Shown here: positions 1-31,700 of the stretch, piece by piece
Layout of the letters: the number at the start of each line of letters is the position of its first letter
Numbering within the stretch: position 1 is the first letter of the stretch
Assembly: GCA_950295325.1 (NCBI GenBank)
Contig: OX485806.1
Location: 29,512,001-29,576,000 of the forward strand
Reading direction: 5' to 3'
Length of the DNA stretch: 64,000 nucleotides
Source of the DNA: Polytrichum commune
Lineage: Eukaryota > Streptophyta > Polytrichopsida > Polytrichales > Polytrichaceae
Position numbers and translations under genes: made by a program
Notes under the pieces: generated by a model
The model's input: the letters and a program-made list of their open reading frames with translations, nothing else
Databases searched by the model: none
What the model was told of the DNA's origin: nothing

Positions 1-1240
1 GTCTTGTGAGTGAGTCATGTCAATGAAGCAAAGGCTGATTGCCGAGAAAGAAAGGCAATAGCCTAGTGGAAGAAGGAAGAGTCGGAGTCTGAATATGGCC
101 ATAGACAAGAGAGAGACTTCTCTCAGCCTGGTGCACAGGTTAAAGACTATTTGCCTGAGAGAAGGACAAAGAAGCGTTGGCAATTAGGCAGTGAGTGGTA
201 GAGTCTTGGAAGTCTGTAACTTCCGTGAGACTAGGCCTGGGCGATAGGCTATGTTAAGGGAAGTCATGAGAGAAGTCCGTGAGGGTAAATAGTCGAGGTT
301 AAGGCCATTGCCTGCTCGGACAGAGAGCCGAAGCATCGAGGAAGAGCTATCGCCTGAGTCCCTTGGCTATCGCCCGTTTGTTACAGAGAGACTATGAGTG
401 AGAGTTGAGAGAGGAATGTCCTGTAGGGCCATAGGTTTAGCAGGTGTCGTCCCTGAGAGAGAAGAAAGAAAGAGAACAGAGAGGCCGCTCGTGGGAGCAT
501 AGCCAAAGGCCTACTCTAAGACATTACCTGGCGTGTAGCCGTTGCAGTGACTGCAGAGACGAGACGAGTTATTCGCAAGCGTGAGCTGCAAAAGATATTA
601 CCATCTCATGAAAAAGAGATTGACTACTTAGTGTAAGACATTACCAAAGGCTAATACTTTCAAGCTTAAAATGTAATTAGGCCTTAATTAAGGAATATCG
701 CCTACATTGTTGATGCATTGATCATATATAATGCTGTGGGGATTTGTGTGGACAAGTTGCCAAATCAGTTGAAGATGAAGATGATGATTACAGTCTTGTG
801 AAGATTGCCTGGATGACTGTAAGTCAAATTAAGATGAATTAATTTGAAATTATTGCAAAGCTCAATTCTTGTTATGCAAAGACGATGTGGTTACAAAAAG
901 ACATTACCCCGGACTTCGGTCCTGACGAATTGCCAAGGACTACTTGCCAAGCTTTTGAGCTTCACGACTGAAATAGGTCAAAGAAATAGAGTGATAGAAA
1001 CTTTCCCTAAAGATAGGACAGAATAACTTTTGACGGAGGAAGCACAAGGAACCATAAGAGTGGGGAATAAGTGGAATTAAGAAGGAATGAAGGAAGAAAG
1101 ATCCTATGTTGTTATTATAGTCCTTAAATCCAATGTGACATTAACCCTTATAGACACTATCTCAGTCTTCCTGGAGACTTTGTTCCCTGGGTTTTGTTGT
1201 TTTGAGCCATAGCAAAAACTTACTACATAAATTTTTCTAG
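1..1240. other. Non-coding purine-rich segment, LTR-like
   Basis: No protein-like reading frame was recognised. The plus strand is strongly purine-rich and repeats short partly palindromic words of the type GGC(A/G)ATAGCC (around 52, 240, 304, 349 and 364) and 'agacattacc' (around 520, 636 and 900). The right part (about 1130-1240) resembles the end of an LTR: a T-rich run and a CCTGGGTTTTG box. It abuts the point where the LINE coding sequence to the right stops, so it may belong to another element inserted there and extending beyond the left edge. That origin is inference; no second LTR or TSD is visible. Confidence 0.3.
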
Positions 1241-3156
1241 GTTTTCAAGTGGTATCGGGTTCAGTATTCTAGTTGGTGAGGTGTTTATAGGGGATGGGGG
1301 TCTGGCTATAAGTGTGTTGTGTGGGATGTGTAATGTGACTGGATATTGATCTGAATTTAGATTTATGTTTGTATTTGTAGTGGAGGTAAATTTGATATTG
1401 TCTGGGGAGTGAATGTAGAAACCATCTATTAGGCTTGTTGATGTGTAGTTGTAGCCACCTTGTCTGGAGATACTAGTGTTGGTTTGAATATATTCTAAGT
1501 TGAGAGATGTGGTGAAGTTTTTCCATTGGAAGTCTTCTTCTTGTGGGGGGGTGTTAGTGTTGTTATTTTGTCTGCCCTGAGTGCAATATCTCTGTTAAAG
1601 TCACCACATAGTGTGTATATGTGATTGGGGTGTATAGTGATTTCGTTAGTGATTTCGTTTTTAAGGTTTGGGATAAGACATGTGTCTTCTAAGTGCGTGG
1701 GCATATACATGTGTATGATTAGCCAAGGTATTAGTGGGTGGTTATTTATTTTTATTATTTATAAATATGGGGAGATGTTTGCTGGTGTGGGAATTTTGGT
1801 GACATTCCCCAAGAATGCATATTTATGATGGATAAGTGTGAGTAGGCCATCTCTTCCAGGAGTGTAAAGCATTATTTTTTGTATGCACGTTGTGAGTGCT
1901 TGTGTGTTGTTAAAAATGAGTTTGAATTCCGGAAATATATTTTGTATATATTTTGTAGATTTGTTTGCAGTTAGTTTGGTTTCTTGGATATGTATGATTG
2001 TTGTGTTGTTTAGGGAATTGTTTATTAGGCTTTGTAAGTTTGGTAATGAGGTATTGAGCGATGATGCGTTCCATGTTATTATGTTTGTTTCATGTTCGGT
2101 GTTGGTGTTGATTCTTGTGGTTGGTGGGGGAATAGCTAGGAGTGGGGGTGGGTGTGAGTATTCGTTAATGTTTTCTAAGCATCTAAGTGCTTCAATTATC
2201 AATTGGTTCGGAAGGAAGGGAAATTCTTTTTGGAGGGTGATTGATGTGGGTGTAGTCTCTTGGTTGTGGATAAATTCAGATATTTTCGTATGTATTGAGT
2301 TTTTAGGGAGTATTATATCTTGATTGTTTTCTATAAATATTGTGTAGGGGTGTGGTGTCAGTATGTGCCGCTCGGGGGGGTTGGTAAGGTTAGCTAGTCG
2401 AATGATTAATGTGTTGGTCCATATGTTATTAAAGTGGTAATTTTGGGGTTGGGCTAGTATGTTATTGCATGTGTTTATTGAGGGGTGAATGGTAATGATA
2501 AGAGCGTATAGCATATGGGTTGGTGGTGATTGGCTTTGAATTTGGATATATTGGTGTAGATGTAGGTATGTCGTGGTTGCCTGGGGGTGTAGTGGGTGTG
2601 TGTGTTTTAGTATGGGGGCGAATGTATTTGCTATGTGTTGGTACTTAGGTTGTAGTTTTATAGTGTTTGGAATAAAGTATAAGTTGGCTTTTTTTTTTTG
2701 TGTAGCAGGATGTGTATGTAAGATATTAGGCATTGGTCCGGGATTGAGTTCAATGTCCCTGCATTTTAGTAGATCTAATTTGTTAATGAAGTAGTATCCC
2801 TGGAGGTGAAGTGTTTTTGGTCTTTTCCTATTTATTTTTTGATATTTTATGATTGTGAATTTGGCTATAGTAAAGAGATTGGGTATAGCGGGTATGATGT
2901 TTTCTACTTGTTTGGGTGAGAAGTGTGACTTTGCATTATTTGTAGGTATTTGGTTTGTTACTGAGTTAGGTTTCCACTTGTTTATGAGGTGATATGAGTT
3001 ATTATTTGTGTGGCGAGGCCGGTAGGCTGAGGCTGTATTGTTTTTTGGGTAAGGTTTGTATCTTGAGTGAGGGTTGAATTTTAACTGGAAGTTAAGTTTG
3101 AGATGAGGTTTGAGGTTAGGGTGGGGTTTGTGTTTAGGGCGTTTGTTTTTTATGTG
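1220..3156 (-). pseudogene. LINE ORF2 fragment: 2A-like motif followed by EEP (APE-type) endonuclease, no RT
   Basis: The frame is open from 3156 to 1762. It contains the 2A-like motif, about 215 residues of unrecognised sequence, then the EEP domain. Endonuclease motifs in order are I-T-W-N-A (Asn at about 2070-2068), I-Q-E-T-K-L (catalytic Glu), GRDGLLTL, then after a TAA at 1759-1761 in the same frame LCGDFNRDIAL (Asp/Asn pair), and finally IDGFYIHS and NSDQYPVTL. A TAG lies at 1495-1497, and a frame change occurs near a seven-G run at about 1542-1548. The terminal motif is normally S-D-H-x-P; here the His is Gln (codon at 1346-1348), so cleavage activity would be lost. Downstream of ILNPIPLENLEKF coding stops and no reverse transcriptase follows. 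An upstream TGA at 3157-3159 separates this from more frame-compatible A/C-rich sequence. Confidence 0.75.
2734..2757 (-). other. 2A-like ribosome-skipping motif D-I-E-L-N-P-G-P
   Basis: Translated on the minus strand in the same frame as the EEP domain, the sequence reads Leu-Leu-Lys-Cys-Arg then D-I-E-L-N-P-G-P and Met-Pro-Asn. All invariant positions of the 2A consensus D-(V/I)-E-x-N-P-G-P are present, preceded by the Leu-Leu often seen upstream; the Gly that often precedes Asp is Arg here. 2A peptides make the ribosome skip the Gly-Pro bond and release two proteins from one frame. They are known in some animal and trypanosome non-LTR retrotransposons at the N-terminus of the endonuclease-RT ORF, which is the position seen here. 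Function in this copy is inferred, not shown. Confidence 0.75.
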
Positions 3157-4760
3157 TCATTTGTTGTTTGTTGGGTGGTGAGGCCGGTGGACTGAGGCCA
3201 TTTTGTTTTTTGGGTAAAGTTTGTGTTTGGTGTGGGGGTTTAATTTTGAGTGGAGGTGGGTTTTGGGGTGGGATTTGTGGTTTTGGTGGGTGTTATGTTT
3301 AGTTAATAAGTGTGTGTGTGTGTGGCCTTTAGGTATATGGTTTGTGGTTATGTGAGGCTTCCACTTGTTTGTGATGTGGTGTATGAAGTTTGTTTTGTGG
3401 CGAGGCTGGTAGGCCGAGGTCGTTTTGTTCTTTTGGTAGGGTTTGTGTTTTGAGTGGAGGTTAGGTTTTGATTGGGGGTAAAGTGTGGGGTTTGGATGCA
3501 AGTTGTGATTAGGATGAAGTTTATGCAGTGGATGAGATTTTAATTTAGGTTGGGTTTCTTGTTTTGAGTGAGGATTATACTTTGGATGGTATTTGTGTCT
3601 TGGATGCACTTTGTTTTTCGGATGAAGTCTCTGTTTTGGGTGTACTCTATATTTCGGATAACGCTTTTCCTTTGGATGAAGATTGTGTCTTGGGTGAGGG
3701 TTATGTCTTGGATGAGTTTTGTATTGTGGGTGGGGTTGGAGTATTTTGTGATCACATTGTAGGGCGGGTGTAATGTTTCCTAGTTGTTTGGGAAAAAGGT
3801 GGGTATGTGTGTTGTCTTTAGTTGTGTGGTTTGTTATTGCATTAGGTTCCCCTTTGTTTGTGAAGTGGTATTTGTTATTATTTTTATGGCGAGGCCGGTA
3901 GGCCGAGGCCGTTTTGTGTTTGGGTGAGATTTTGTATTTTTTGTGGGGGTGAGGTTGTGCTTTGGGACAAAGTCTTGGGTGGGGTTTGAGGTTTTGATAT
4001 GGGTATGGGTTGATTGTTTGTGATTTATTTTTATTTATTTTTTGGTGTTTTATGGGTACGGGTGTGGGTAGTTTTATGTTTCCTAAATGTATGGGTGAAG
4101 AGTGTGTGTATGTGTATTCTTTGTGTGTGTGGTTTGTTATTTTGTTAGGTTTCCATTTGTTTGTGGGTTGGTATTTAGTATTAGTTTTGTTGATTTTGGC
4201 TTTATTTTGTGTGTTATTAGATTTTTTATGCGTTCGGTTTTAGTTGTTATACTATGGTTGGGTAGGGTGTGTGTTATGTTTCTTGATTGTCTAGATGTGA
4301 GGGGGGGATATGTATTGTCTTTAGGGATGTACGTTGTTATTGTGCGAGGTTTTTGATGCGTACTTGATATACTTGATATACTTGATGTAATGAGGTAGTA
4401 TTTATATAAGTTGAGTATCTTTGGTTTTTTCTTATTTGGTTTTTGATATTTGGTGAGTGTAAGTTTTGTTATGGGAGGGATGTTGGGTAGGGTGGGTATA
4501 ATGTTTTTTGGTTGTTTGGGTACGGAGTGTAATTTTGCATGGTTTGTTGGTATTTGAATTGTTATTGAGTTAGGTTTCCAATTATTTATGAAGTGGTGTT
4601 TGCAATTAGGTTTGTGGTAAGGCCGGTAGGCCGATGCCATTTTGCTTTTTGGGTATCTTTTGTGGTTTGAATAGGAGTTAGGTTTTGAGCGGGGACAAAG
4701 TTTGGGGTTTGGATGTGGGTTGTGTTTAGGATGAAGTTTATTTTGTAGGAGTGTTTTTAA
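2880..4760 (-). repeat. Degenerate internal repeat array upstream of the 2A motif
   Basis: At least five copies of a module recur at variable spacing. One marker is the plus-strand string GAGGCCGGTAGGCCGAGGCC and variants near 3014, 3180, 3400, 3890 and 4620; on the minus strand it encodes K-(M/T)-A-S-(A/V)-Y-R-P. A second marker encodes N-(K/N)-W-K-P-N-S, and a third encodes the stretch just upstream of the 2A motif. The best pair (about 3340-3660 and 4560-4880) is about 1.2 kb apart. The copies lie in different frames (the one at 4620 is out of phase with 3890), so the array as it stands is not one open protein. The coding strand is A/C-rich and His/Lys/Pro-rich; such composition gives long open frames by chance, so coding status is uncertain. 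Confidence 0.6.
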
Positions 4761-5230
4761 GTTGGGATGTGTTGCTTGTTTTGGGTGTGAACTATGTTTT
4801 GGATGAAATATGCGTTTTGGATGACATTCGTTCGTTGGATGGAGTATGTGTTTTGGGCACCTACCGTATTTCGTATGGAGATTGTTTTTTGAATGAGGTG
4901 GGAGGTATTTTGAGTTGAGGGTATGCTTTGTGTGACCATTGTACGTTGAACGGTAGTACTTTCTATGTTTGTTGTTTTGTATGTGGGGATTGTATTTTGG
5001 TTTGAGTATTGGGTATGTAGTTTTTTGTTGTATATTGTATTTATTCGGGTATAGGAGGCGTATTTTGTATTTGTATACCATATGGTTTTTTGGGTGTTGT
5101 GGAATACCTTCTTTGTTGTTATGGTATTTTGTATTTATTCTAGTATATGTTTCTTGTATATGTCTATATATGTATATATGTATATGGTAGCATTGCGATA
5201 AATGCTTTTTTATTTCTTGGCGGTTTGTGG

Positions 5231-7276
5231 TCAATCCACATTTGGTTGGTCTTTTAGCATAAGGTTTGGTTTAACCACACCCGTAATTTGTTGCATTCCC
5301 GTAAGTGCCAAAGTCAAGGTGCTTTGGATGTCCATCATCTGTTTTTTGAGTTTTTCGTTTATTTCATCCCCATAGATGTGTGCTTCTTTTACTATGTCAT
5401 CTTTTAACTCCTTCATATCCTTGTGGAGTTCAAGTTTGAGTTTTTTGTTACCTTCCTCAATGGCCTCTTTCATGACGGTAAGAACGTCCCCCTTTGTTGC
5501 ACTTGCTTCTCCTTGTGTTTGGTTTTGGATGGCTTCAATTGTGTTTACCAAACACGTATTAGTATCTTCAAAACCAAATTTGATTAGTAACTCTTTGGGG
5601 GATTTGTCATTTCCATCAAGGCTCCGGCGGTGTGGGGTAATTTCCACATGGTAGGCCCCAATTTTTGCTTCTTTACCCACAAACTTCCTATACACAAAGG
5701 GGTTGAGGCATTCCACATTGGCACTCCCATTGTGTCTCAAGCCATCTTGCTTGTGGAACCAAATAGATACCACATTTTTGGTTCCTAGTACCTTGCAAAT
5801 TTCAAGAGAGGTGTCTTCAATATTCATCAAAATGGGGAGGTTGTAGAAGGTTAGGGTAAGAGCCTCTTTCCTTGCCTTTTGCTCCATAGTAAGAGAGGGG
5901 CCCTTTGTCACTTGCCCATCAAGGATTTGGTGGTGTGTAGATACTTGGAGAGTTTGTATTTTCTTAGCTTGAAGGGGGGTAGGAGCAACAATGTAGGCAT
6001 AGTTGTTAGCGGTGGTCTTTTGTACTTCTACAATTTCAAAGTTATGACCTCTTCTAAAGCTATTTTCAATGATATCAAGAAAGAGAGCATGAGATGTCAA
6101 TCCTACTAGAGTGTCATTTGAAATTTTGATGGAGAGGTTGTTATTCCTAGCAATGGAGTGATATGATTTACGTATCTTGCCTAGGCTTCCAACATTTGAG
6201 TGGGGCTCAAGGTGGAGAATGAAGGGTCTAAGACCCGTGAGTAAGGCTACTCCATCGGTTTGGGGGTGAAGGAGGTGGAGTTTGACTATCCCAACCCAAA
6301 CTCCCTTAACCCCTCCTCTCTTGATACTCATCCATAGGACCGAGATAGGTTCAATGAGGTTAGTTCCTAATGGAATGTGAATGTCATTTAGCCTCTCTTT
6401 AACAAGCTCTTTGACATGGTTATGAAATAGGGGGTTGTTGGGGAGTTGAAAATGAATGGCAATTTGAAAGTCTAAGGACATGCAAGAGATGGGGTCAATT
6501 TCTATCTCTGATGGGAGTTGAGTGAGGTTAAGATGTTAACCCGGTAATCCATCACTTCTCTCACTTGGGTACAAAGTTTGTGGCACTCTTGGGTATGAAA
6601 TGCTTACACTCTCTAATTCCTCGGCTTCCTTACGGGGGATGCCTCTTGTGGTTCTATCAGCAATGGTTTCATCATTGAACAATTCATCAATTCCTTGCTC
6701 AATTGCAAGTTTTTCCATAACTTCAAATCCTAACCATAATTTGAGTTTTGGGTCTGATGTGGGCTCTGTGACATGAACCACATTACGGGGAGAAATCACC
6801 TTGTGGGAATTCGAGGGTGGGGATGTCCCGGCCCGATCTCTAGCTCTCTTCCCATTGGCTGCAGCTCGGGCATTTGTTTTGGCCTTCTCTGCAAGGAGTT
6901 TATTTAGGCTTTGAGTGGGCGAGTCAATCTCCATTATGTCTTCCTCGTCACCAAAAACCTTTGCTAGGGTTTCTGGAATCAGGTCCCTTCCCTCCGTGTT
7001 GCTGTTGTCTCGGAGAGGGGCTCTTGATGCGGCCATCTCCGTTAAGTTTGGGCTTCGGGGTCTGTTTCCGCTTGTGGGATCTGCAATGTCGGGGCTGTGA
7101 TTGCTCTGGCGCCGCTCTCCTTGCTCTGGTTCGGTGCACTCACATGTGATTCGGTGCTGCTCACCTTCCCGAATACAATGTGTTTGAGATCTGCCTATTT
7201 TGCTAGGGATTACTCCGCCTCTTCTCCAGCTCCATTCGTTGTCTCGGTGTAGAAGGTAGGGATTACTATAGATCAC
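5231..7276 (-). pseudogene. LINE ORF1 protein, RRM-like with C-terminal coiled coil, broken by one stop codon
   Basis: Two open stretches (7276-6539 and 6535-5234) lie in the same reading frame, separated only by one TAA at 6536-6538, so they form one ORF of 682 codons counting that stop. In the second part, numbered from the ATG at 6481, residues about 205-295 look like an RNA recognition motif: a beta strand LTFYNLP (RNP2-like), a helix, then HNGSANVECLN (RNP1-like) and a closing strand AYHVEITPH. Residues about 330-390 are a Lys/Glu-rich amphipathic coiled coil. RRM plus coiled coil is a known architecture of LINE ORF1 RNA chaperones that coat the transcript. The first half is polar and low in recognisable structure and carries an RKR-type basic stretch. 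The single stop marks a lightly decayed copy. Confidence 0.65.
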
Positions 7277-7560
7277 TGTGAATCTATCTCTTTGTTTGGC
7301 AACTTGTGACTCTCCGTTGTAGTCTCGGATCTCTCCGCAATTTGCACAGGATCTTGCTGGTTTTTGTTTGCTGGAGGTTGCTCCTTTTTCGATCCAACGC
7401 CGCTTGCCTCTGATTCGGTGATGGATTTGTTGTCCAATGAGCTCGGTGTCAGATTCGGTGTAATCGCAGGTTTTTTGATGTTGTTATATTCCCTGATAGT
7501 AGTGTGTACGAGATCTGCCTATTTTGTTGTAGGTTACTCCTCCTCTGCGTACGTCTCGAT
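7150..7560 (-). repeat. Duplicated segment at the LINE 5' end
   Basis: The word GATCTGCCTATTTTG followed by a similar context (xxGxTTACTCCxCCTCT) occurs at about 7189 and again at about 7511. In minus translation both encode a K-I-G-R-S-(Q/R)-T-H string. The second copy lies upstream of the ORF1 start, so it sits in the 5' untranslated region. LINE 5' regions with internal repeats are common and can carry promoter units; here this is inference. Confidence 0.5.
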
Positions 7561-7699
7561 GTGGGGCGTCGTCTTTTTTGCAGTCTCCTTGGATTTCTTC
7601 TACGACACCCTTTCTGCAACCTCCACCGCCTTCTGCTACGACCCCTTCTTGCGCTCCACTGTCTTGGGTCGGTGGTTCTCCCACTAGTGGATCGGGCTT

Positions 7700-8516
7700 G
7701 TAACAAGAGTTTAGTTCTAAATCTAGGGGACATGCATATATGCTATGTTTGAAAAGCAAGATAAATGTATTAATGATATAAATGAAAGAGAAAAGGAGCT
7801 CCTTCTGTGCGACTCTCTGGCTATTGCTGAAAACTGTAATTTTGGTACAATGTGACGATCGGGAGTATCGATGTGCTTGAGTCCTGGGTGTTTGCTACCT
7901 CTCTCGCCGTGTTGCATAAAAAACCTCAGATCTAGATTACTACAAGCAAAAATGAAGTTTTAATCTCAATCACAACCAATCAGAGCCCCGGCTCTTTTAG
8001 AGTACTCTCTCCTTGAGATCTCACTACCATTTACACACGCTTGAGTCTCTAGATTTGGGACTTAAGCATTCACAGGTACCCCTCAACACATCCAATCACC
8101 TCTTCAAGCACCCTGACCATCTGTTGTCTAGTGTATGCGGGGTCACTGCGAGGCCAGCTCCTGGCAGCACATGCACTAGTCTCCAGTGGCTCACTTCACA
8201 GTCTCACACCATACCAGAAAATACGGAGCCCTTAGCAACTCCTCATCTCTCTCTTCTCCTGTATGTGCTGAGCTACAATATTCATAAGTATAGGTAGGTT
8301 GTAGAAGGTCAGCTATAGTAGAAATACATATGACCACACCTTCACCCTCCCTTTACCCCTCCACTACAAGCCAAGGTAGGTCCCAAATCAAGCGATAAGG
8401 GCTTCTCATGAGGTGGCAATGCATATGTGGACAAACACATCAAACAAAGACTCTTGAGTTTGAGAGGTCTTACTTAACTTAACTTGACAAAGAAGATAAG
8501 TTGATGCACTTTGTGT

Positions 8517-10371: not shown

Positions 10372-11506
10372 AATCTCCCACTTAAGTACACACTTTGAAC
10401 AGAAGCCGTTGGTGCGCACTTAGTTGGTAGGTGCGTACTTTACTCATATTGCTTCCTAGAACCTCTGATTCGATGAATCGCAGTGGGAAACGGATGAAAC
10501 TTGAGGTAACCCGGTTGACCGAAATCCAACCTATCAAGACATTTGTTGAATCTGAAAGTGCCACCAACTTCAAAGGCTCTGAAGCTCTACACAACATTGT
10601 CCTCGACATCGACGACCAATTTCTTTGCTCCAGTGCTCAAATGGAAGCTGGATAGATGTATGATGAATTGCGACGATCGTTTGAGACGTTTCACCAAAAC
10701 GTTAACAAACTGACATTAAGTGTCAAGCGTAAAAAAACTCATGCATTCACAGCAAATGACTTCACATGATATGTTCAAACCAATGCCCGGGAAGTTTTTG
10801 GGCGTAGTCAATCAAGATCCCAGTGATTCTAAATCCAACCGGTTACATGTTGACATCTTCCGGTTTTGCTTTATTCATTTGAGGTATATTCCATAGATTC
10901 CTTTAAAATGTTCGGTAATTCTCCTGAAGTCTCCAACTTCAACCGGTTATTTCTCAAACTCAACCGGTTCATCTGTGACTAAGCTTAACGGCCGGTTCTT
11001 CCTGGACATAGGTTCAAACAACAAGAAAACGGTAGAACCGTGAGGCTCTGTCCTTTATTATGAAAGACTACAATTATAGTTGTCCACTTTGCTCATGCCA
11101 ATTCATGGCTATTCACTATACCAAAGCTTTCTTGGATTTCGTGCACCTTCTTCTCAAATACGGGTCAAGGATTGAAGCTACTCATTTATAACCCGAAATT
11201 TTTTAAATAAATAATCAAGAACTGCCGAAATAACTGTAGTTAACTAGATTTATTTCAATGCATTTTAGAGAGCACTTATATATAAACTATAGATAACATC
11301 CACATTAAATACAGTGGACCAAAAATAACAAGAATAAGTAACGTCCAAGTGTGAACACAAAGTGGTTAGGAAATTTGCTCTTGAAACGAAGAAGTTGATG
11401 CATAGTCTCTGTCCTACAGACAGAGCCAATAAAGTATGAACCTCGATTTATTTCAAAAAAAAAAGCGCACTTAAGTGGGATGCGTACGTAAGCGGGAGAT
11501 TACTGT
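10372..11506. mobile_element. TIR element (family D) carrying a CCGGTT-repeat copy
   Basis: The left end reads TAATCTCCCACTTAAGTACA. The right end, reverse-complemented, reads TAATCTCCCGCTTACGTACG, followed by a second ACTTAAGTGCGC, so the termini are imperfect inverted repeats. Internally there is one CCGGTT-rich copy (about 10836-11000) and a segment (about 11030-11430) that recurs in inverse orientation at about 60840-61120. A 75-codon open frame at 10431 has no recognised domain. The TSD and superfamily were not resolved. Confidence 0.45.
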
Positions 11507-11689
11507 ACCCTTATTGTGTCCCAAGAAGGACAAGTGATGAATTAAGCATGGGCAATGGATTGCCTTCTAACCTAGCTTAGCTCAACCCAGAACACCTGAC
11601 TCCTGAAGGTCCAGAAGACAGACAGACAGCCAGACTGAGAAGCCTCAAAAGGACACTGGAAAGGAGCACTCCAATGAAGGAGCGGAACC

Positions 11690-12560
11690 CACCACTGGTT
11701 ACAGATGAACCAGTTGAGTGTGAGAAATAACTGGTTGAAGTTCATCAAGACTTCAGGAGAATTACCCATCATTTCAGTGGAATCCATGGAATATACCTCA
11801 AATTAATAAAGAAAAATACCAAAGGATCACAACATGTGACCGGTTGAACTTGGGAAACAGTAGGATTTTGACCGATCATGCTGTAAAAAATATCCCCGGA
11901 CACGGGATAACTCATTCCGACTCAATGAATGAGGAGCATTGACCGCTGGTTACAGATGAGCTGGTCGAGTTTGAGAAATAACCGGTCTTGGAAGTTCCAA
12001 GACTTCTTCAGGAGAATTACTGATCCATTGAGAGGAAGTTATGGAATATTCTTAATTTGGTAAAGAACAACCGAAAGATGTCAACGTGTAACCAGTGGTA
12101 TTGGAAGCAGGGCTCGGGAAGCACCGGCGGTTAGTTACAGATGAACCAGTTGAGTTTGAGAAAGAACTGGTTGAAGTTCATCAAGACTTCAGGAGAATTA
12201 CCCATCATTTCAGAGGATTTTATGGAATATACCTCGAATTAATAAAGAAAAAACCAAAGGATCACAACATGTGACCGATTGAACTTGGAAAACAGTAGGA
12301 TTTTGACCAATTATCCTGGAAAAAATATTTCCAGACTCACGATAACTCATTCCGACTCAATGAATGGGGAGCATCGACCGCTGGTTGCAGATGAACCAGT
12401 TGAGTTTGAGAAATAACCGATGCAAGTTCCAAGACTTCTTCGGGAGAAATTACTGATCCATTGAGAGGAATTTGCAGAATATTCTCGATTTGGTGAAGAA
12501 GAACCGAAAGATGTCAACATGTAACCAGTTGACATTGGAAACAATAGGATCTCAACCCGA
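11690..12560 (-). repeat. Tandem dimer array with ACCGGTT-type motifs
   Basis: The marker GGTTACAGATGAACCAGTTG and variants occur at 11697, 11948, 12131 and 12384, with spacings of 251, 183 and 253 bp. First-to-third and second-to-fourth distances are 434 and 436 bp, so the structure is two tandem copies of a two-subunit unit. The same unit occurs singly in plus orientation at about 10836-11000, 27085-27290 and 28514-28690. Confidence 0.75.
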
Positions 12561-12726
12561 TTACACCCAACAGTCTTTCCAGACACAATTTCAACGTCGC
12601 TTATTACATGAGGTGGTAAACTTCATTGCATACTTAGTACTTACTGACTCAATAAAGTGTCCCAACAGTCACGAGCTCGAGGTTTGCGACATTATGCAGA
12701 TTGCCAGAGTAAGAACTCTCATGTAA

Positions 12727-26959: not shown

Positions 26960-27500
26960 TGGCGACGGGGCCCCATACACACACACTCCATGCCATTATT
27001 AGGTGGACGGTTGCACCCACTTCGTAAGGTAGATGGGTCCTTATAAGGTAGAAATACCTTAACCCGTGATCGGGAAGATTTTTGGGCATAACCGGTTGAG
27101 ATCCTAGTGTTTGCAAGTCCAACCAGTTACATGATGATGACATCCTCCGGTTTTCCTTTATTAAATTGGGGTATATTCTTCTATAAATTCATCTAAAGCA
27201 ATCGGTAATTTTCCTGCAGTCTTCAGCTTCAACCGGTTATTTCTCAAACTCAACCGGTTCATTTGTAACTAGCTGCCGGTTCTCCCCGATCATTGACCTT
27301 AACCCGTGAAAATGAGGTGATTCGCATTGAAGTTATGGTCTTACAATCATGAGTTAATTTTCCAAGATAGACGAGCAAGATTCATGAAGAATTAATGCAA
27401 GTTGTTTCATATGTTTCTTGCCTTGCCCCACACACATACACTCCGCTCCATTATTAGGTGGATAGTTGCACCCATTTTGTAAGGTAGATGGGTCCTCTAT
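26960..27500 (+). repeat. Direct repeat pair around a CCGGTT unit
   Basis: A block with CCATTATTAGGTGGA and TAAGGTAGATGGGTCC occurs at about 26968-27043 and about 27418-27495, 450 bp apart. One plus-strand copy of the CCGGTT-type repeat (about 27085-27290) lies between. A further diverged CCGGTT copy lies at 28514-28690. Confidence 0.6.
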
Positions 27501-27564
27501 ATGGTTACCTTTTTGGACTAGTTGAGGGAACCAACACTGTCCAGGGAGAGTTTTGGACATATAC

Positions 27565-28020
27565 TCTAACTTTCGTAGTGTCACACCTGTGGCAACCGAA
27601 GTGCACGTGATATTACGGAGTTTCATAGTGTTGACATGGATGCGTGATACTAGAGAATCAGTGTAGCATGTGACATTATGGAATAACACAAAGGAGATGT
27701 GAGGACAATTTGAGTTCGTTCTCCTGTCACCTACGCTAGTGTCGTCCACTCCACTTGGCCTTCATGAGTGATGTGGCAGACACATGCACCAACGTTCAAC
27801 AAGTGGCATAAGAAGAAGAAGAAGACACTCCACATGGTGCAATGCGAGGATGTGGGTTGGCTTCTTGGTGGTTTGCATTAATGACAAATTTAGTGATGTA
27901 AGGGAGAGAAATGTGACAATAAGGAGTGAGATGTGAACTACGAACATCCGTTGCCTAGGGTTTCGGGATATTAGAGAGTGTGTGACATTATGGATGTTGA
28001 TATTACGGAGTTCATGGTGT
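27565..28020 (-). mobile_element. MITE-like family B, minus-strand copy
   Basis: Nearly full-length reverse-oriented counterpart of 18965-19440, with the same order of blocks, AAG/CTT run and CCCTAGGG box. Its end carries GATATTACGGAG, the family TIR. It directly abuts the TAA duplication of the following Tourist copy. Confidence 0.65.
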
Positions 28021-28026
28021 CTCTAA

Positions 28027-28523
28027 GGGTCACTCCACACACGAGCCAAGAGCCGTGACCATGAAATTGCGAGAGCCCCAAAGAAAGTGTTCAAAGGCTA
28101 TCCCAAGACACCTCCAGAATCATGTAGTCTGGTCATGGACCCTCAAGTGTAGTGTGAAGCCATATGTGACTAGGACCTCAACTAGATGCTATTCCAATGA
28201 ATTTCTATTCATGTGGGTCCTCACACATGATAAAATAGGATATCAATGGTTGTGAGCATTCGGAGTGCTATGGTCTCTTGGTTTTGTGTTAGGCCTACCT
28301 CCATGAGGTGGTTTTTGAAAATAGTCCAAGTGACCATGAAACATGATCCATTTAATGCCATGTAGGAATCCATGTGGACTTTACATCCATCATGCATTCA
28401 CATGCTCCGTTGGTCCCTCAAGCGTAGTGTGAAGCAAACTTCGACTAGCTCCGCCTTTTCCACCAATGAGAGTGCTTGAAGTGTAATGGTCATGGACACT
28501 CGGTCTCCTATGTGAAGTGGCCT
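28027..28523. mobile_element. Tourist-like MITE, copy 2
   Basis: Starts GGGTCACTCCACACACGAGC, ends TATGTGAAGTGGCCT, with TAA on both sides (28024-28026 and 28524-28526). It is 497 bp and collinear with copies 1 and 3, including the 'GTGGTCACGGACCCTCAAGT'-type inner block. Non-coding. Confidence 0.85.
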
Positions 28524-28729
28524 TAAGTCTAACCGGTTACATGTTGACATCTTTTCAGTTCTTCTTTATTAAACTGAGGTATATTTTATCAAGTCCTTTA
28601 AAATATTCGGTAAAATTTCTTAAGTCTTGAACTTCTATCGCTAATTTCTCAAACTCAATTGATTCATTTGTAAGTAGCAGCCGTTTCTCCACGTTAATTG
28701 GTAGTCGACCCATTCCCAATCAGTTAAGC

Positions 28730-31700
28730 AATTCAACATACGTGTGGTCTTGGTGTGATCATAGGAACAAGTTCTAATGTGAGAGAAACAGTAATAAGAA
28801 GCAATGCATACTTGTTATTTCACAATCACTATAATATTCTAAATTTTCTAAGTGGATATACTCTTCAACCTATACTCATGATATAGGTTACCTAATTTCC
28901 AATCAGTAATCAATTACAAAACCAAGAACACTTGATTTCTGTAATCAACAATTGTGGCACCTAAATATGCTTGCAATCAAACCTAGTTGTCAACTTAGCC
29001 ACTAACATTTGGATAGGTTGGATTTCAACCATGGCATGTCACCACAAATCATAGATTGATATTGTATTGCATGGAAACATGTTGGCATGCATTTTGATAA
29101 TATGGTGGTGGTCAGGAATGGGTCGACTGCCTTAGTAGCCCACTTCTCCTAAGACACAAGGAGTCAAATTAGTAACACATGAGGGTGTTATTCGGTTCAT
29201 ATTTCATCTTCTCCAACTTCTACATGTTAGATTTATACATCAAAGCTTTTGTTCCATCAACAAATCTATGTTTAAGCATCAACATGTTCTTAATTTAGTT
29301 ATGCCTATTGAAAGTGCATGTTTTTTATTCTTTAACTCAAGTCCCTCCCCATTATGTTCACTATTGAGTGTGGAGTAGTTAATAGATTTTGATGACCTTA
29401 GTCCAACCTCTTTGAAACATGTGGCTTTATGATGTTTCCTCTTTGATCACCTAGTCACCACCAATCAAATATAGGGGTTGAGTTGAGGAAAGTGACACAA
29501 AATGTCCGCATACCTTCATCAATCATAACATATAAACTCATGGATACATTTTGTGGAATATCGATGATATCGTGCCTTAAGGGATGCAAATTTGTGACGA
29601 TATATCATAGCCTTTTATGGTTTTATATAAGCAATCACTGCAAGATGGATAGCAAATCCAAATCGAGGCCAAACCCGCATTTCCTCATAACTTCTAGAGT
29701 TCATACAAATATCTTACTCATTAGCATTGTGAAGATTTATGTGCTCATTAAATGGACTTGTAAGTCCCCCCCCCCCCCTCACCCCCAATTATATTGGCTA
29801 CTAAGCCTAGAGTGATTATCATATTGTAAGCATGCATTCCCATCTCCTGCAAACAATTGTCTTTTGGGTATCCATTCTTGAAGCCACACCAAATTATATA
29901 CCATTCAAATTTAGGTGTATAATTATGATAATTAAGAAATTGAATCATGGATGTCTACCTTAAGTGAGTGACCCATAACTAATTAGGGTGAATTAACATT
30001 GTGGCCCATTTCCAAAGAAACTCCAAAAACAAGTGATCCTATTGGTCGATAGCATAAATTTGGACCCAAAGAGTGTATACCGGGGTTTAGATCCGATGAA
30101 TGGAAGAAGAAAAGAAAAGGAAAAATTAAAATGTTGTGTTAATGTGGCATCACTACCCCAAAAAAATTGAAACCAATCCTCAATCATGGTCTAGTATGGG
30201 GAGTGTTGGACCCTTAACAAAAACTTGTTGTAAGGGTGGGTTTACAATAGGGTCTAAGACCAAATCAAATCCGAAATTAGTTCACTTTCTCAATCTTTGA
30301 TGTAGATTGTATCTCTTGTTGTAGACACATTTTAGTTGCATGTACATTGTGTTATATGTGTAAAATATACATTGAGTGTGTCTATTTGACAATTTATTTT
30401 TTTCTCAAAATAATAATTGGAGTTTCAATGGTGTGTTATATTTCCTTCCCCCAAATAATTTATTTGCAATATGCATAGCTGGAAGGCATTGCAAAACATA
30501 CTCTCAAATGCATTAATAGTTATAAATAAAACTTTTGTCCATATTACTCGATCCCTAAAAGACAAAAAAAACCCAAAGTAGGCTTTGTGATGACTTTGGA
30601 CCCATCTACCAACGGGAAATCTTATCATTTTTTTTGGGGGGGGGGGGTGCTAATGCCTGAAAATTTGCTAAGGGTATTTGCACTTGTGAACTAGCCATAT
30701 CATATACATATGCACACTTTAGCAGGGGCAATGGTTGCAAACATCAACCTTCACACAATTCACCCTGCTGGTTCCTGTATCAGAGGGAGGCCACGTGCCT
30801 AAATTTTCTTAACCCATCGATGCATGGGTATGTTGGGGTCTCATTTGGGCAGTGAGGACAAAAGTGGGCCGAAGTCACAAGTCACCGCATAGTTTGTTCT
30901 ATTTCATTCCAGACACGACAATTTTGAATAATTGGATAATTCATAAGAAAGTTTTGGCCAGAGAGGTATTTCCAAGTCGTGTTCCAAGTACCAAGTAAGT
31001 CACATTCAATTCCAAGTTGGCATTGCAAAGGCATTTACCTCAAATTGAACATGGAGAAAGACATGTACTTCCCTTTTCAACCCACGACACCCCCTTATCC
31101 ATCTACCGATTCGTCAAAAGTTACGGAGGATTTGCATTCAATGTCAAGCGAGATGTTGTGGATGGGCTTGTTTCCAATGTGGCGGGACGTACTTGTGCCA
31201 TCCACATTGTTTGCTAGCAGTGCACGGAGTTTGGCACTAGCATTTTGGTAAGAAACTTCATACTCTTTAGCATTTATTTATTCCTATGATGTTTTGCAAG
31301 GTTTTATATCATTATAACAATAAATAAAATATGATAATTATAGTAACTTACTTCTTGGAATTGCAAAATGCTAATACAATTTTTTGTACATCTCAATTTG
31401 TTGCCAACAAAGGTCAAAATGGTTAAATGAATGTTACATAACATTTACATATCTACTTGGTAAGAATTAAATCAATTAGTAAAAATATATATCATTGCAA
31501 TACCTCCAAGCACTAAATGACACTAAATACACAATAATATTTCGATTGTAAATGGCTAATATGGTTAGTACTTATTATGGTGTGTCGAACACATGGGCTC
31601 ATCTGTTCAATTTCTGTAATAGTGATGGCATGTCGGAGTGGTGGGAGAGCCTGGGTTGGGAGGGGGGCTACCAAAAAGGATGTCGGATGGTAGATGGCTC

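Follow-up and report, generated by a model that had tools for sequence, protein, structure and literature searches.

The question raised by this locus is whether a short peptide motif, encoded in a decayed LINE copy of Polytrichum commune, is a genuine ribosome-skipping (2A or StopGo) signal of a plant retrotransposon. 2A peptides in LINEs are known from trypanosomes and animals. Here we report an analysis of the locus, a window of 64,000 nucleotides (contig OX485806.1, positions 29,512,001 to 29,576,000 of the forward strand), and of its relatives in the same genome. The motif is very probably a genuine StopGo/2A peptide of a superfamily of plant non-LTR retrotransposons, which would free the endonuclease-reverse transcriptase (EN-RT) protein from a leader. 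The StopGo motif of RNA viruses (FMDV 2A and 2A-like sequences) is given as (D/G/C/N)(V/I)ExNPGP in PMC12846837, with Gly preferred at position 11 (p11) when p12 is Asp.

The first-pass annotation had reported D-I-E-L-N-P-G-P on the minus strand with Leu-Leu upstream, and the translation of the window confirms the in-frame 2A core: the octapeptide is encoded at 2757-2734 and Leu-Leu at 2772-2767. The core lies within GYYFINKLDLLKCRDIELNPGPMPNIL (minus strand), its local peptide context in the window copy is GYYFINKLDLLKCRDIELNPGP followed by MPNIL, and release is predicted between Gly (2739-2737) and Pro (2736-2734). The 2A peptide as a whole has 23 residues, QGYYFINKLDLLKCRDIELNPGP (2734-2802, minus strand), and a low dN/dS in relatives. 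Its frame had been said to stay open from 3156 to the start of the endonuclease, and indeed 465 open codons run from 3156 to 1762 (stop at 1759-1761), the endonuclease start ITWNASS (2079-2059) included. The placement ascribed to the motif relative to the endonuclease holds for the shared frame and the upstream position but not for close proximity; 218 residues, a conserved ORF2 N-terminal region (2080-2733, minus strand), separate the core from ITWN. Likewise, the Arg that replaces the usual Gly before Asp is real in the window copy but private to it, and is not a feature of the family: the nearest copies, L007 and L008 (97.1% and 96.5% identical to the window copy over about 950 nt), have Gly.

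The host element had been described as decaying, and its layout bears this out. DNA similarity to the relatives L001, L003 and L004 extends over 1228-8248 (minus strand; ends approximate). The ORF1 frame of the same element (5231-7483, minus strand) has a Met at 7036, a single in-frame stop at 6538-6536 and the C-terminus PNVD before its stop codon. The A/C-rich and repeat-rich leader (3157-5250, minus strand) has stops of the 2A frame at 3157-3159 and before 4239, and another frame is open over 5270-4137 (minus strand). Its last part (2803-3156, minus strand) is open in the 2A frame and under weaker protein constraint, with about residues 85-102 partly constrained. The start of an APE-type endonuclease (1228-2079, minus strand) is in frame to 1759, where the 2A frame terminates within the endonuclease; the rest is spread over other frames as far as about 1228, the point of truncation of the element. 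Pfam did not recognise Exo_endo_phos in the window ORF, but did so in the relative L112, and four window ORFs gave a single weak Pfam match (E 0.0049, below its cut-off). The best match of ORF1 to solved structures had an E-value of 0.15, and a fold of the ORF2 N-terminal region predicted from the window copy alone was useless (mean pLDDT 34).

Two further sequence features were seen in the window. A GC-rich element, GGCYTMCCGGCC, has one to three exact occurrences per copy in the A/C-rich leader (window 3157-5250; L001-L004, L107, L108 and L114) and is absent from L111, L112, L119 and L129. Translation across this element gives different peptides in different families (MASAYRPRH, RARPTGLAQ), so its role may lie at the DNA or RNA level. 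At 10788-12570 and 27071-29514, several pieces resemble L112 nt 831-1232 (73-90% identity), which lies upstream of the L112 2A ORF; some of these pieces are serial, about 210-240 bp apart.

Relatives were collected from the 408 Mb genome (chromosome-size contigs C1-C7) with a query of 185 residues around the motif, which yielded 150 scored matches from 852 candidates; the matches are spread over every one of the seven large contigs and a single small one. From the 149 non-window matches, 104 were aligned (hand-picked down the ranking, denser in its upper half, with 45 left out), and the motif region aligns in every one of these chosen homologous copies. The published StopGo core is found in frame, as intact D(I/V)ExNPGP, in 90 of 105 rows (window included), and with the preceding Gly in 87. 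Six of the 15 rows that lack the exact core have Lys at p14, the Glu position, and L094 is frameshifted there; a stop falls within residues 119-142 in three of the 105 rows. The common peptide of the window's family is LLKCGDIExNPGP, with a Leu-rich stretch and Cys-Gly before Asp, and Met directly follows NPGP in 102 of the 105 rows. Several core positions vary synonymously with the residue kept (the first Pro of NPGP is written in four codons), and the codons of the last Gly and Pro are nearly fixed in the 105-row set. The rows with Lys are L064, L101 and one related group (L002, L090, L091 and L093), a subfamily with GGDIKPNPGP and long open frames (2,924 codons in L002, 2,663 in L090, shorter in L091 and L093), in which Lys would be either a tolerated variant or a loss of 2A.

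The check proposed with the first-pass annotation was an alignment of intact relatives. In these the motif is present and in frame with ORF2: in copies with an open frame of 2,625 codons (e.g. L001), LLKCGDIEPNPGP is in frame with the EN-RT ORF, and the relatives with intact frames support the 2A reading of the motif. Because some copies are 100% and 99.9% identical over about 0.9 kb and five open frames of 2,625-2,924 codons occur among the matches, the sequences point to recent activity of the element.

Selection on the encoded peptide was estimated from 15 representatives at least 10% apart (L094 was left out for its frameshift). The dN/dS ratio was 0.64 in leader residues 13-118, 0.14 in the 23 residues of the 2A peptide (119-141), whose upstream context is thus under protein-level selection, and 0.15 in residues 142-330. 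Pairs pooled in three divergence classes gave 0.78-0.85 (residues 12-60), 0.56-0.68 (61-118) and 0.14-0.22 (119-141), the pairs being non-independent and post-insertion decay raising every value. A sharp onset of constraint exactly at the 2A peptide, at which the pooled pairs hinted, was rejected: among the 15 representatives, the least-squares change point of nonsynonymous divergence falls at residue 88 instead of the 2A boundary (119), and there is partial constraint over residues 85-102 as well.

The leader was examined in 18 loci chosen from 27 with longer sequence (L001-L004, L107-L129); the nine omitted include decayed loci with short frames. Leaders of 40-923 codons have no stop in the 2A frame, which follows from how they were delimited, and the other frames have 2-59 stops each. 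The longest (L004) has 923 open codons, with 45 and 57 stops in the other frames; the stretches of L119 and L122 take in ORF1 sequence. With the 2A frame kept open there and the other frames interrupted by stops, translation apparently proceeds through the leader in the 2A frame, though the leader sequence is rather free to change.

Junctions between the two frames were examined in 18 rows, and the end of ORF1 is visible near the second frame in ten of them. Seven rows (L002, L111, L123-L127) have an AUG of the 2A frame that shares nucleotides with the ORF1 stop (AUGNNUAG), an arrangement with the geometry of a putative termination-reinitiation site. In the window-type rows (L001, L003, L004), the start of the second open frame precedes the end of the ORF1 stop by 22-25 nt; at these three junctions no AUG of the 2A frame was found at the ORF1 stop and no standard slippery site was seen by eye. 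The junction of the other eight rows is missing, unclear or decayed, or ORF1 and the 2A ORF form one frame (L119, L122). In L119 and L122, the ORF1 C-terminus, the leader and the 2A units share one open frame, an ORF1-ORF2 fusion that 2A would split.

The window-type junctions without an AUG, together with the Met that so regularly follows NPGP, would fit an alternative in which ORF2p begins by internal initiation at this Met, with an upstream sequence that is never translated and owes its conservation to a constraint on the nucleotides. Over the 23 codons that precede this Met, however, the residues are kept (pN 0.12) while synonymous sites diverge (pS 0.54), and leaders are open for hundreds of codons in the 2A frame only. 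Moreover, families of the L type carry Leu, not Met, after NPGP, and the motif is still kept. With codon-level constraint upstream and Leu in the L-type families, initiation at the Met is unlikely.

In some families the 2A unit occurs in tandem. One ORF contains four NPGP units in L111, three in L118 and two in each of L112 and L119-L126; in L127 a stop interrupts a series of three, the two units of L128 are not in the same frame and L129 has a single unit. Twelve of these loci were picked for clustered or variant motifs, so that the share of arrays does not represent their frequency. In the ORF of L118, an M-type ORF2 N-terminus continues into an L-type unit, as if two families had recombined. 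Among the first 100 of the 143 genomic places with Gln or His at p14, there are 30 same-strand neighbours within 1.2 kb and none on the opposite strand; in this set the spacing is a multiple of three in 24 of 30 neighbouring pairs, and the order along the translation is Gln then His in 24 of 30 pairs. The matches listed include 14 different spacings that keep the frame and 6 that do not, and many arrays are copies of one another (six at spacing 462, four at 396). In several ORFs the upstream units often have Gln at p14 and the last unit His. For the 19 residues before NPGP, dN/dS was 0.26 in upstream units and 0.25 in the last unit, with 0.55 between units and 0.41-0.62 in the leader (17 array pairs of 50-95% identity, paired with NPGP aligned, so that NPGP is excluded); a run without the identity floor and with NPGP included gave 0.23, 0.22 and, between units, 0.54.

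These arrays bear on a second alternative, that a conserved stretch of the ORF2 protein is merely 2A-like and is kept for folding or function without skipping. Conservation alone is not distinctive, since dN/dS after the 2A peptide is as low as within it, and the subfamily with Lys at p14 has spread. Yet constraint is weaker upstream, units recur at the 14 in-frame spacings among the matches listed, the sequence between them evolves at a dN/dS of 0.55 against about 0.25 within units, and every fixed position of the published motif is matched in 90 of 105 rows, all of which makes mere resemblance very unlikely.

Throughout the 408 Mb genome, the DIExNPGP-type DNA pattern GAYATHGARNNNAAYCCNGGNCCN occurs 267 times and the DVE form 5 times, each against 0 for a reversed-pattern control. 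With the same type of control at 0 throughout, GDIxxNPGP cores number 420, GDI cores with Gln or His at p14 143 and those with Lys 17; the five count sets overlap. All 23 loci picked by motif encode the N-terminal/endonuclease region of LINE ORF2, one of them (L112) having supplied one of the two ORF2 queries. At 17 of the 23 the best match starts exactly at the codon after NPG and in frame, the queries having begun at this Pro, so that an earlier start was impossible; it starts at query residue 9 in L123 and further downstream in L109, L113, L115, L116 and L117. In the motif-picked loci, the 2A core thus lies upstream of the endonuclease in the same frame. Despite the decay of the window copy (ORF1 stop, broken endonuclease, truncation), the probability of a chance motif in a decaying repeat, or of animal or viral contamination, is negligible: homologous copies lie on all seven large contigs, the reversed-pattern controls rule out chance (267 vs 0; 420 vs 0), and the genome carries the green-plant genes for light-harvesting proteins (58 matches) and WRKY domains (34 exon matches). 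The WRKY number, well short of that in seed plants, suggests a non-seed plant; YABBY, searched as a seed-plant marker, gave no hit, and neither did any control of that search. Fourteen equal-score Chloroa_b-bind (light-harvesting) matches lie within about 95 kb on contig C5 (1751760-1846160).

The order of features after the 2A core is about 218 conserved residues, the endonuclease, RVT_1, a PCIF1_WW match, RNase H and a C-terminal CCHC with a PD..E..K pattern. RVT_1 (E 1.3e-32) and Exo_endo_phos (E 2.4e-5, barely above its cut-off) were found by Pfam in the same ORF of L112, as in APE-type non-LTR elements; L001 has RVT_1 (E 8e-30), and Exo_endo_phos was not matched there at E 0.1. RNase_H was matched in L132 (E 1.8e-12) and L133 (E 6.8e-15), and the solved structures (PDB) closest to the RT by sequence are led by R2 proteins. 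PCIF1_WW, a cap methyltransferase-related domain, was matched between RT and RNase H in L001 (ORF2p residues 1587-1682; E 2.5e-10), L132 (E 8.1e-11) and L133 (E 2.6e-6, with a score below the curated cut-off); a literature search pairing PCIF1 with non-LTR elements found no paper. In L130, L131 and L133, the C-terminus has a CCHC knuckle and then a conserved PD..IEFTYC..K, like the restriction-like endonuclease part of R2. No Pfam nuclease was found at this C-terminus, and a PDB profile matched an R2-type restriction-like endonuclease at E 1.6 only. The APE domain and the C-terminal PD..E..K pattern together suggest a dual-endonuclease element, and the domain order looks like that of Dualen/RandI LINEs, which have both an APE and a restriction-like endonuclease (PMC3636483, PMC4640811, PMC8226300). 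APE, RT, RNase H and the CCHC with a PD..E..K-like C-terminus are shared with these elements (PMC3636483, PMC4640811, PMC8226300), whereas the PCIF1-like region distinguishes the present ones, in which the restriction-like domain is a candidate recognised by its motif pattern.

Under the StopGo reading, ribosomes would translate ORF1 and move into the second frame where ORF1 ends, using in several families the AUG that overlaps its stop (AUGNNUAG), and would then translate the long low-complexity leader in frame up to the 2A peptide. The leader would be released at NPG and synthesis would resume at the next Pro, giving a product with the ORF2 N-terminal region, APE endonuclease, RT, PCIF1-like region, RNase H and C-terminal CCHC/PD-(D/E)XK-like region. 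2A would uncouple ORF2p from the leader, which could therefore duplicate and diverge at little cost, and duplication of the 2A module in some families would have produced between two and four candidate skipping sites. What we observed directly is the conservation of the motif, its frame, the constraint at codon level, its abundance across the genome, the tandem arrays and the overlap of AUG and stop; from these we infer that skipping occurs and what purpose it has.

Several observations count against the StopGo reading. Lys occupies p14 in a subfamily with long open frames (L002, L090, L091, L093), and the sections of PMC12846837 used here give no activity figure for it. Upstream units often have Gln at p14, and partial activity is reported for E14Q in foreign contexts (56% or 26%; PMC12846837). 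In L112 the open stretch starts 14 codons before the Asp of the first unit, after an in-frame stop 15 codons upstream of it. The window-type junctions that lack an AUG, the change point at residue 88 and the 15 of 105 rows with an inexact core belong on this side as well. On the supporting side, His at p14 is a natural variant with more than 95% activity in reticulocyte lysate (PMC12846837).

The arrays also allow a more tentative proposal, to which we give somewhat less than an even chance, of a natural multi-site StopGo system. LINE polyproteins that carry between two and four 2A units in frame, with Gln at p14 (predicted partial) upstream and His or Glu (efficient) last, would yield graded amounts of leader-containing and free products from one mRNA, and the 2A module would be shuffled between families as a cassette.

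Like the StopGo peptides of viruses, the motif described here has the core octapeptide, Gly at p11, a Leu-rich stretch ending in Cys-Gly, Asp at p12 and a predicted release before the last Pro. The Leu-rich upstream motifs 2 and 6 of viral StopGo end in (A/S/C)G (PMC12846837) and are matched by LLKCGDIExNPGP of the window's family. For full activity, FMDV 2A requires more than 30 native residues (PMC12846837). His at p14 is also shared, as a rare active variant in viruses (PMC12846837); unlike there, the host is a plant retrotransposon, and Gln, His or Lys occupies p14 in whole groups of copies. Several tandem 2A units in one ORF are likewise found in picornaviruses with multiple 2A-NPGP (PMC11512398), there in a virus polyprotein and here in a LINE leader, and shared ancestry is not claimed. 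According to PMC12846837, a survey of nearly 10,000 viral StopGo sequences found nothing to show that plant viruses use StopGo naturally, six hits were judged likely host misassignments, and StopGo functions in plant cells when introduced.

The 2A LINEs of trypanosomes and animals also have an in-frame 2A near the N-terminus of the EN-RT ORF. The present elements differ from them in the plant host, a leader of up to hundreds of residues, tandem arrays, the 218 conserved residues between 2A and endonuclease and a possibly Dualen-like domain order. Among the papers listed in literature searches, none described a 2A in a plant LINE in its title or the beginning of its abstract; Rao 2025, reportedly a survey of eukaryotic sequences by its title, could hold one. 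The plant host, the tandem arrays and the p14 variants look new for a LINE 2A, and the larger finding is a superfamily with tandem, p14-varied candidate 2A units.

If the multi-site system is real, it would be a new way to set the stoichiometry of LINE proteins and the first naturally used StopGo in plants, unless Rao 2025 lists one. A 2A peptide kept across many subfamilies of a plant retrotransposon superfamily would show natural use in a plant lineage and would be a source of native 2A sequences for plant biotechnology, and the residues that occur naturally at p14 (E, Q, H, K) would be material for the sequence rules of skipping. The arrays and the weakly constrained leader suggest the idea that 2A lets a mobile element bear fast-changing sequence before its enzyme unharmed. 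Plant retrotransposons thus seem to employ a trick known mainly from animal viruses, by which their replication enzyme is set free from a long leader protein under little constraint.
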